10,060 bases of DNA, taken from the NCBI GenBank assembly GCA_030630935.1, contig DAOVMD010000077.1:1-10060 (forward strand), read 5' to 3'. This document shows, in pieces, positions 3,231-6,637 of this stretch. The stretch is from Candidatus Mcinerneyibacteriota bacterium. GTDB lineage: Bacteria > AUK180 > JAQVHJ01. The notes beneath the pieces are model-generated. The model was not told the DNA's origin and ran no database searches. It worked only from the letters and a program-made list of their open reading frames with translations. Within the stretch, counting starts at the first letter, position 1, and every line of letters starts with the position of its first letter. A program made the translations under genes and the position numbers.

Positions 3231-3977
3231 ATGAACGAAATAATGGAAGAGGAAAAGACAACAACAAAGAAGAAAATCAATTGGAAAAGATTTTGGTTTT
3301 GGTTAATATTTTTAATTGTTATTTCATTACTTTTAATTATTTATATCCCGAACAGGATTTATTCAAGAAGGAAGGCAGTCCTTTCAAGTTGTTCCGGTAA
3401 CTTGAGAAATCTTGGAATCATAATTACAAACTACTCGACTGACCATAAAGGACATTATCCACAGAACCTGGAAGTGTTAGTTGAGCAAAAATACATTCTT
3501 GAACTTCCGGTTTGTCCGGTTTCCGGGAAATCCTATTTATATTATTCTGATGGTTGGAATTCAACTGATTTTATAGTTTCATGCCCAAATCCGCAAGAGC
3601 ATGTCGGGTCACAAGGACCAAAGAGCGTTACTCGTTTACTATATTATGCAAGTGGTCGCGGAGTTTCTGGAGGATATACTCCAAGTTATGTTGATAGTTT
3701 CTATAATTTAGGAACTATTATTAAGATTTATTCAATGACTCATGGGGGGCATTACCCACAACATCTTAGAGTTTTAAAAGATATGAAATATATTGAAGAA
3801 ATCCCCACCTGTTCTAAAACAAAGAAGCCGCTTATTTATCAAATAAACGGTTGGGATGACGATGATTTCACTATCTGGTGTCCCAATCCTGAAAAGCATA
3901 ATTATTATGGATCTAAAAGTAAATTAAAATCATTATATTATCATAAAGGAGAAGGTATTATAGAGGTAGAAAAGTGA
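3231..3977 (+). CDS. Two-domain pseudopilin-like membrane protein (copy A)
   Basis: A 248-aa protein with a charged cytoplasmic tail (1-20) and one membrane helix (about 21-41). It then has two tandem copies of a domain of the type CxxNLRNLGxxxxxYSTDHKGHYPQNL...CP...F..CPNP, at about 51-145 and 150-245. The helix followed by PNRIYSRRKAxLSSC matches the N-terminal helix and linker of type IV pilin/PulG-like pseudopilins. However, the prepilin peptidase site (G/A-FTLIE) is absent and a 20-residue charged extension precedes the helix. Domain 1 has Cys54, Cys95 and Cys118. In domain 2 the first Cys is Tyr153, while Cys194 and Cys217 remain. It is a paralogue of the gene at 5200-5952. Role unknown; a fixed envelope protein derived from a pseudopilin is inferred. 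Confidence 0.85.
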   Translation: MNEIMEEEKTTTKKKINWKRFWFWLIFLIVISLLLIIYIPNRIYSRRKAVLSSCSGNLRNLGIIITNYSTDHKGHYPQNLEVLVEQKYILELPVCPVSGKSYLYYSDGWNSTDFIVSCPNPQEHVGSQGPKSVTRLLYYASGRGVSGGYTPSYVDSFYNLGTIIKIYSMTHGGHYPQHLRVLKDMKYIEEIPTCSKTKKPLIYQINGWDDDDFTIWCPNPEKHNYYGSKSKLKSLYYHKGEGIIEVEK

Positions 3978-4000
3978 AAAACAATTTAATTTTATCATGA
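3974..4000 (+). pseudogene. Vestigial start of the secreted-protein gene downstream of copy A
   Basis: A GTG at 3974 overlaps the stop of copy A (TGA 3975-3977) and opens an 8-codon reading frame, MKNNLILS, ending in TGA at 3998-4000. The intact gene after copy B begins MKKLILIT. Position and peptide match, so this is best read as the remnant of a second copy of that gene, cut off after a few codons. It is short, so chance similarity is possible, but its placement within the duplication supports the call. Confidence 0.5.
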
Positions 4001-4146: not shown

Positions 4147-4695
4147 GTGAGTTGGTTTGAATTGAACTTAAAGTGGAAGGTTTTGGGGTTTCTTGCAGGG
4201 AATCCGGGGCAATCTTTCTATGTATCACAGTTAGCAAAGGAGATTGAATCCGGGAAGGGAATGGTGAGTGTAGTTCTTCGAGAATTAGAGAAAGAAGGAG
4301 TTTTATCCCGGAAGTCCTATGGTAATTCCAAGTTTTATACCTTGAAGGATAATTACATGACCCGTGAATTAAAGAGATTTTATTTCATCACCAAAGTTTG
4401 GGATTTTGATTTACCTGGTTATTTCCTTCGTCAGGATGATTGCATTGAATTTATTGTTATATATGGCAGTCATTCTTCCGGAACCCAAACGGCAGATAGC
4501 GACCTTGATCTTTTAATTATTACCTCATCTCCCCGTGGTTTTAAAATAACAAAATTAGAGAAAGTCCTTAATAAGAAGGTTAATATTACGAAACAAAGCC
4601 TTGGTGATTGGCTTCGATTAAAAAGAAAGAAAGAGCCATTTTATCAGTCCACCAAAGTAAATCACCGGGTTATCTATGGAAGTGAATTACCATGA
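4147..4695 (+). CDS. Winged-helix/minimal nucleotidyltransferase protein, antitoxin-like partner of HEPN
   Basis: A 182-aa protein. Residues about 7-78 form a winged helix-turn-helix (SQLAKEIESGKGMVSVVLRE recognition region, then GVLSRKSYGNSKFYTL wing). Residues about 100-180 form a minimal nucleotidyltransferase domain with the full signature G107-S108-xxx-G112-x5-S118-D119-L-D121. The third acidic residue usual in active enzymes is not evident; VNITKQ (146-151) stands at that strand. The family transfers nucleotides, and MNT members are known to AMPylate HEPN toxins. The start is GTG with AAAGAGG upstream; an in-frame TGA at 4132 rules out extension. Its stop overlaps the HEPN start by 4 nt (ATGA), indicating translational coupling. 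It may also repress its own promoter through the repeats at 4101-4128. Confidence 0.85.
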   Translation: MSWFELNLKWKVLGFLAGNPGQSFYVSQLAKEIESGKGMVSVVLRELEKEGVLSRKSYGNSKFYTLKDNYMTRELKRFYFITKVWDFDLPGYFLRQDDCIEFIVIYGSHSSGTQTADSDLDLLIITSSPRGFKITKLEKVLNKKVNITKQSLGDWLRLKRKKEPFYQSTKVNHRVIYGSELP

Positions 4696-5114
4696 ATTTA
4701 AAAGATTGTCTTCGCGAAGGTTTGTTAAGAAAATTTACCTTTCCTGAAAATACATTCAGAAAAGAACTTGAAAACTCAAAACATCATCTTAATAATGCAA
4801 AGAAATGTCTGGACAATGATATGTTTGATCTTGCTATTGTCTCTATTTATACTTCAATGTTTCATGCTTCAAGGTCGATATTATACCGGGATAATTTTAA
4901 AGAGAGAAGTCACATCTGTTTAAAGATTTATCTAGATGAGAAATATCCATCTCTAAAAGAACATTTGATTATCTTTAATGCTTATAGAAAAAATCGTCAT
5001 AATATGCTTTATGGCTTGGATATATCTGCGAAGAAAGAAGATATTATTGAAGGGTTAAATGTATCCGAAGAATATTTAATTAAAGTTAAAAGTCTTTTGA
5101 GAGAAATTGTGTAA
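4692..5114 (+). CDS. HEPN domain protein, likely toxin-type partner
   Basis: A 140-aa all-helical protein. Residues about 23-137 match the HEPN pattern: a helix with ELENSKHHLNNAKKCL, then DLAIVSIYTSMFHASRSILYRDN, then KERSHICLKIYL, then the conserved YRKNRHNMLYG (98-108). HEPN proteins are commonly ribonucleases using an Rx4-6H motif. Here the motif region reads R99-K-N-R102-H103, an arginine-rich variant without the usual spacing, so nuclease activity is uncertain. It follows the nucleotidyltransferase gene with a 4-nt overlap and is probably expressed only with it. Together they form a MNT/HEPN pair of the toxin-antitoxin type. Confidence 0.85.
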   Translation: MNLKDCLREGLLRKFTFPENTFRKELENSKHHLNNAKKCLDNDMFDLAIVSIYTSMFHASRSILYRDNFKERSHICLKIYLDEKYPSLKEHLIIFNAYRKNRHNMLYGLDISAKKEDIIEGLNVSEEYLIKVKSLLREIV

Positions 5115-5138: not shown

Positions 5139-5175
5139 ATTATAATTTGACATTTTAAGGTTATTGTAGTATAAT
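5139..5175 (+). promoter_or_regulatory. Sigma-70 promoter of pseudopilin-like gene B
   Basis: TTGACA at 5147-5152, 17-nt spacer, TATAAT at 5170-5175. ATTATAATTTGACA at 5139-5152 is identical to the other two copies. The SD AAGGA at 5190-5194 lies 5 nt before the ATG at 5200. It probably also drives the gene at 5966. Confidence 0.9.
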
Positions 5176-5199: not shown

Positions 5200-5952
5200 A
5201 TGAATAATATCAGGGAAGAGGAAAAGACTCCACAGAAGAAGAAATTCAACTGGAAAAGATTTTGGTTTTGGTTAATATTTTTGATTGTTATTTCCTTGGT
5301 TATAATTATTGTTATTCAGAACATGATTTATGCAAGAAGGAAGGCTCTTCTTTCAAGTTGTTCCGGGAACTTAAGAAACCTTGGAATTATAATTACAAAT
5401 TACTCGACTGACCATAAAGGTCATTATCCCCAGAACCTGGAGGTGATAGAAACCCTCGGTTATATCGAGAAGCTTCCGGTTTGTCCGGTTTCCGGGAAAT
5501 CCTATTTATATTATTCTGATGGTTGGAATTCAACTGATTTTATAGCTTCATGCCCAAATCCGCAAGAGCATGTCGGATCACAAGGACCAAAGAGCGTTAC
5601 TTCTTCACTATACTATGCAAGTGGTCGTGGAGTTATAGCAGTAGCAAATCCTCCTCCAAGCTGTGGAGATAATTTGAGGGATTTAAAAAGAATTATTATT
5701 ATCTATTCAATAAATCACAAAGGTCACTATCCACAAAATCTTCAAGTTTTAAAAGACTTAGGTAACATTGAAAAACCTCCAGCCTGTCCCGAAACAAATA
5801 AATCATACATATATCAAATAAATGGTTGGGACGACGATGACTTTACTATCTGGTGTCCCAATCCTGAAAAGCATTCTCGTTATGAGTCTGGCAAAAAACT
5901 AAAATCATTATATTATCATAAAGGAGAAGGAATAATAAAGGAGAAGGAATAA
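5200..5952 (+). CDS. Two-domain pseudopilin-like membrane protein (copy B)
   Basis: A 250-aa paralogue of the gene at 3231-3977 with the same plan: charged tail 1-20, membrane helix about 21-41, and two tandem pseudopilin-type domains at about 51-145 and 151-245. All six cysteines are present: Cys54, Cys95, Cys118 and Cys155, Cys196, Cys219, three per domain. The extended domain-2 signature is DNLRDLKRIIIIYSINHKGH. As in copy A, the cleavage motif of true pilins is missing. Domain 1 is nearly identical to copy A over residues 91-134. The C-terminus ends KGEGIIKEKE, where copy A has KGEGIIEVEK; a 17-bp tandem duplication explains the change. The next gene starts 13 nt downstream. Function unknown. 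Confidence 0.85.
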   Translation: MNNIREEEKTPQKKKFNWKRFWFWLIFLIVISLVIIIVIQNMIYARRKALLSSCSGNLRNLGIIITNYSTDHKGHYPQNLEVIETLGYIEKLPVCPVSGKSYLYYSDGWNSTDFIASCPNPQEHVGSQGPKSVTSSLYYASGRGVIAVANPPPSCGDNLRDLKRIIIIYSINHKGHYPQNLQVLKDLGNIEKPPACPETNKSYIYQINGWDDDDFTIWCPNPEKHSRYESGKKLKSLYYHKGEGIIKEKE

Positions 5953-5953
5953 T
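5920..5953 (+). repeat. Perfect 17-bp tandem duplication at the 3' end of copy B
   Basis: AAAGGAGAAGGAATAAT at 5920-5936 is repeated without change at 5937-5953. Because 17 is not a multiple of three, the second unit is read in another frame and supplies a new TAA at 5950-5952. Removing one unit would restore KGEGIIKVEK followed by TGA at 5967-5969, matching the end of copy A. Confidence 0.95.
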
Positions 5954-5965
5954 AAAGGTGGAAAA

Positions 5966-6637
5966 ATGAAAAAACTCATCTTAATCACTCTTTTAATTCT
6001 ACTCCTCTTCCCTGTTGTGAATTGTGAGACATCGGATAATGAAATAAATGTTATTGAGAGTGAGAAAGGGACAAAAGCAACTTGTAAAATTTCAGGCCAT
6101 ATAAAAAATGAATTTGATATTCCTGTTAAAAATGTTTATATAGAAATAAAGGGTGATACAGATTCAAGTGCAATTACTGATAGCAATGGTTATTATGAGT
6201 TTTCCTCTTTAAATACAGGGGCGACATATATAATAACACCAATTGTTTTAATTCCTCTTTGTCCGGGATGTGAATATTATATTTACTTACCAGAAAATAG
6301 AATAATTAAAAATATTTCAGAAAATAGAAAACAAGATTTTGTTGCAATAAAAAAGATGACTTATTCATCTAATTTAGAAAACATTAAGGTTTATCCAAAT
6401 CCATACGTTAAAAACAAGTATAAAAACTATATAACTTTCGAACCCCTTACACAAAAGTCCAAAATTGAAATTTTTACTTTAGATTCAAAAAAGATCTTAG
6501 AAGTTTATTTTAATAACTCACAATTTAAATGGAACGTTGAAAACGCTATCCCAAGAATCTCATCTGGAATATATATCTATGTCATTACAAATGTCTACGG
6601 GCATAAAAAAATAGGAAAGATAGCTATTATCAAATAA
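5966..6637 (+). CDS. Secreted CarboxypepD_reg-like protein with T9SS/FlgD-like C-terminal tail
   Basis: A 223-aa exported protein. The N-terminus has two Lys, a hydrophobic core and PVVNC (16-20). This could be a lipobox with an unusual Asn at -1, or a plain Sec signal cut nearby. Residues about 40-92 resemble a carboxypeptidase-regulatory-like/Cna-B-type beta-sandwich: SGHIKNEFDIPVKNVYIEI, then TDSNGYYEFSSLNTG. Residues about 136-223 resemble the type A sorting tail of type IX secretion, or the FlgD Ig-like domain: VYPNPY at 142-147, KIEIFTLDSKKI, SSGIYIYVI and the Lys-rich end KIGKIAIIK. It probably binds or decorates the cell surface. It is co-transcribed with copy B; the SD AAAGGTGG ends 4 nt before the ATG. 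No secretion machinery is visible here. Confidence 0.8.
   Translation: MKKLILITLLILLLFPVVNCETSDNEINVIESEKGTKATCKISGHIKNEFDIPVKNVYIEIKGDTDSSAITDSNGYYEFSSLNTGATYIITPIVLIPLCPGCEYYIYLPENRIIKNISENRKQDFVAIKKMTYSSNLENIKVYPNPYVKNKYKNYITFEPLTQKSKIEIFTLDSKKILEVYFNNSQFKWNVENAIPRISSGIYIYVITNVYGHKKIGKIAIIK

Follow-up and report, generated by a model that had tools for sequence, protein, structure and literature searches.

A 17-bp tandem duplication, probably made by slippage, separates a pilin-derived gene from its downstream neighbour in a Candidatus Mcinerneyibacteriota bacterium

Termination-reinitiation has been described at gene pairs whose stop and start codons overlap at a spacing of -4 (ATGA) (PMC10666635, PMC6728339), and reporter experiments have followed its dependence on the distance between the two codons. 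In Haloferax, a 13-nt gap gave 60% less reinitiation in one pair, and in three pairs little or none was left at 22-23 nt (PMC10666635). In E. coli, a distance of 38 nt brought reinitiation down by 80-90% or fully, the effect of shorter gaps varied by pair, one pair losing only 5% at +2 nt, and the range from +11 to +20 nt was set aside by the authors as gene-specific (PMC10666635). Two kinds of tandem repeat also bear on the locus considered here, namely short tandem duplications arising by replication slippage at microhomology, and phase-variable simple-sequence tracts, in which tandem units are placed where translation could be altered. Direct repeats of 7 bp at 17-bp spacing are a standard substrate for slippage, and misalignment between them duplicates exactly one 17-bp unit. 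The present locus appears to be the same in kind as the slippage duplications, with perfect units, a 7-bp direct repeat and a frame-changing unit length, its particular feature being that the duplication hits a stop/start overlap without altering the length of the protein. The likely ancestral junction and that of an outgroup match the -4 ATGA systems, whereas the present junction stands at +13 nt, a distance at which coupling differs from gene to gene. Unlike phase-variable tracts, it has two units only and no frame switch past the first duplication.

The window, by which we mean the whole 10,060-nt stretch of DNA that was analysed, carries two related genes, copy A (3231-3977, + strand, 248 aa) and copy B (5200-5952, + strand, 250 aa), and the duplication lies at the 3' end of the latter. 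As an earlier note on this DNA had reported, the unit AAAGGAGAAGGAATAAT is present twice in perfect tandem, unit 1 (5920-5936, +) and unit 2 (5937-5953, +) being adjacent and letter for letter the same. TRF places here an exact period-17 array of 2.41 copies and 41 bases (5918-5958, +; 100% match), which with a score of 82 is the top-scoring tandem repeat of the window, the runner-up scoring 43. Because the exact periodicity extends over 5918-5958, the unit boundary adopted above is one of several equivalent placements. The same genome was sampled over 587,299 bases (the window, five earlier stretches and 80 more contigs, with C31 and a few others possibly partial). For perfect arrays with a period of 10-100, no fewer than two full units and a run of 17 or more, this sample gave three, including the present one, and a first-order Markov sequence of equal length gave none under the same rule; such arrays are rare in this genome, and their number is above chance. 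The other two arrays have periods of 36 and 12, each divisible by three, and the 17-bp array is thus the sole one of the three with a frame-changing unit length. The collapsed one-unit pattern found no match in the viral contigs searched.

Both copies encode two-domain pilin-like proteins without a GFxxxE prepilin signal, in place of which a charged stretch, MNxIxEEEKT, precedes the hydrophobic segment at the N-terminus; a paralog on another contig (C338, L003) has the signal, and it is from paralogs with this pilin N-terminus that copy B is taken to be pilin-derived. Over 162 nt (3504-3665 versus 5473-5634) the two copies are 96% identical, and in blocks of 20 codons outside this segment the identity is about 62-93%. 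This mosaic points to gene conversion or to strong constraint acting locally. A perfect TTGACA-17-TATAAT promoter-like site lies upstream of copy B (5147-5175, +). Such sites number four in 10 kb (at 206, 3179, 5147 and 9808, +), and three of them are directly upstream of a 762-aa gene, copy A and copy B. Between the copies, a nucleotidyltransferase gene (4147-4695) with a helix-turn-helix-like start overlaps a HEPN gene (4692-5114) by ATGA, a pair resembling toxin-antitoxin systems of the MntA/HepT type, with an MntA NCBIfam score under the cut-off.

With a single unit, obtained by computed collapse, copy B has 250 residues and the end KGEGIIKVEK, and its TGA shares a 4-nt overlap with the ATG that follows, just as the earlier note had argued from deleting one unit. 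With two units, as assembled, it again has 250 residues, and ends in KGEGIIKEKE at a TAA (5950-5952, +) that lies 13 nt ahead of the ATG at 5966. Since three does not divide 17, the reading frame shifts past unit 1 and meets this TAA at the same codon number as the former TGA; copy B is no longer or shorter than before, and the replacement of VEK by EKE is the sole change. The last three codons and the stop are hence made by the duplication. The C-terminus was said to have been rewritten; it is indeed changed, but by a three-residue swap in a protein of unaltered length. With three, four or five units the computed protein does not differ from the two-unit one, and the gap becomes 30, 47 or 64 nt. 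The structure prediction for copy B has a mean pLDDT of 50.9 and values of about 25-33 across the last 30 residues, a level at which the tail is not judgeable from the model.

Two relatives align across the junction, one a paralog (copy A) and one an outgroup gene, and both have one unit. Copy A ends in KGEGIIEVEK with the DNA end GGAGAAGGTATTATAGAGGTAGAAAAGTGA, and its TGA overlaps a GTG (GTGA at 3974-3977), as previously noted. This GTG opens just an eight-codon frame, MKNNLILS (3974-4000), which may be what is left of a downstream gene since lost; the similarity is weak. The outgroup gene (G001:C398, L062; the contig is also L052) comes from the only same-family genome among 60 searched, one of a different genus, and supplies the comparison with a related genome that the earlier note had called for: it has one unit, GGTATAATTCAGGTGGATAAATGAAGAAACTC, and ends in GIIQVDK, GGTGAAGGTATAATTCAGGTGGATAAATGA, with a TGA overlapping an ATG. 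That ATG opens a 59-codon frame starting MKKLLLLTLLV, much like the leader of the downstream gene in the window, MKKLILITLLI. The collapsed window sequence aligns without gaps with both copy A and the outgroup gene, and none of the relatives examined has a repeat tract at the junction. Elsewhere in the source genome, an unrelated 353-residue frame on C20 also ends in ATGA over a gene with an MKKLIL leader, and on C461 a related pilin-like gene ends in TAA and is followed by an MKKLIL leader gene without overlap at that leader. Among 334 gene pairs sampled from this genome by crude ORF calling, a spacing of -4 is the commonest, with 23 of them. Beyond the earlier deletion argument, the one-unit copy A and the outgroup comparison support one unit with a stop/start overlap as the better ancestral state, as had been proposed.

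In the collapsed one-unit form the 7-bp direct repeat ATAAAGG occurs twice at 17-bp spacing, and copy A retains six of the seven repeat bases (ATAAAGG...ATAGAGG). Slippage, which the earlier note had invoked, would thus find a good substrate here and is the ordinary explanation for a 17-bp duplication. We consider it quite probable that slippage between the two ATAAAGG repeats, or an equivalent microhomology-mediated copying error, duplicated one 17-bp unit at the end of copy B and likely weakened its coupling to the downstream gene. The addition of one unit would have shifted the frame after unit 1, bringing a TAA to the codon of the former TGA, and would have moved the stop from a 4-nt overlap with the next ATG to a position 13 nt before it. 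Termination-reinitiation coupling would then be weaker, and the downstream gene would rely more on its own ribosome-binding site. Since the duplication is missing from copy A, it is probably later than the split of A and B. The event had been called recent, and the bound on its age is weak: 17 identical sites exclude a divergence of more than about 16% at the 95% level (1 minus 0.05^(1/17)), and stronger recency is not supported.

The downstream gene (5966-6637, +, 223 aa) consists of a leader, a carboxypeptidase-regulatory-like domain (Pfam PF13620, E 1.8e-6, under the curated cut-off) and a T9SS type A sorting-like tail (NCBIfam TIGR04183, 25.2 bits versus a cut-off of 23). A nearly identical MKKLIL..LLILLLFPVVYC leader heads unrelated domains in the same genome (at 5966-6030 here, at L057 1373, at L053 about 1618 on the - strand and at L054 6357), its partners being carboxypeptidase-regulatory-like in the window and WG-repeat-like, as judged by eye, on C20, C383 and C461. 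The sequence AAAGGTGGA (5954-5962, +), to which a duplex scan assigns -6.5 kcal/mol, is likely the Shine-Dalgarno site of the downstream gene. It is identical with one or two units, and most fold windows predict a low accessibility for it that hardly differs between the two. We also considered that the added AAAGGAG unit might act as a decoy, releasing the native ribosome-binding site from pairing, and rejected this model: its apparent effect in one fold disappeared in other fold windows and was matched by shuffled inserts.

How much coupling would be lost is less certain, and here a neutral outcome, with the duplication real and coupling and protein function essentially unaffected, is a serious rival to which we give not much less than an even chance. 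It shares the origin step with the slippage explanation and differs in effect only, and our confidences in the two overlap. Copy B has the same length and differs in three tail residues, the downstream ribosome-binding site is as before, the related junction on C461 is likewise separate from its leader gene, and reinitiation can be nearly intact at very short gaps, as in the E. coli pair at +2 nt (PMC10666635). Against neutrality, the outgroup retains the overlap, and so does the junction ahead of the similar leader on C20, a hint that the arrangement may be under some constraint. The gap of +13 nt lies within the range called gene-specific (PMC10666635), and the published distance effects come from E. 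coli and Haloferax, with gene pairs that differ. Our best guess is that coupling is weaker but not abolished at 13 nt. The two genes had been described as uncoupled; this is plausible, but the expected loss is partial, and the ribosome-binding site is unchanged.

An origin of unit 2 in faulty assembly or sequencing, the real genome having one unit with a stop/start overlap, seems improbable to us. In its favour, the source genome is a draft at 80% completeness, broken into 471 contigs, and a single unit is what copy A and the outgroup show; however, the whole array of 41 bp is below ordinary short-read length, and with 3 arrays in 587 kb the assembly shows no general tendency toward such arrays. 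The two-unit allele is probably real. The phase-variable-like tract suggested in the earlier note, a switch of the downstream gene in which unit number alters coupling, is very hard to credit, since for all that the predicted gaps of -4, +13, +30 and +47 nt for one to four units span the published range of falling reinitiation (PMC10666635), there are just two copies, none of the relatives examined has the tract, and the protein is identical at every n of at least 2 (n=1 differing by three residues), which leaves no on/off frame switch. Equally far-fetched in our judgement is a coarse dial on stop-to-start distance, by which unit number would tune the T9SS-type downstream protein with copy B constant past the first step. 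Our literature search for short tandem repeats joined with phase variation, translational coupling and slipped-strand mispairing found no paper that combines all four.

General understanding is left unchanged by this locus. It does offer a clean natural example in which one small duplication separates an overlapping gene pair and the length of the upstream protein is kept, and the copy B junction may in this way serve as a tidy natural test of distance-dependent coupling.
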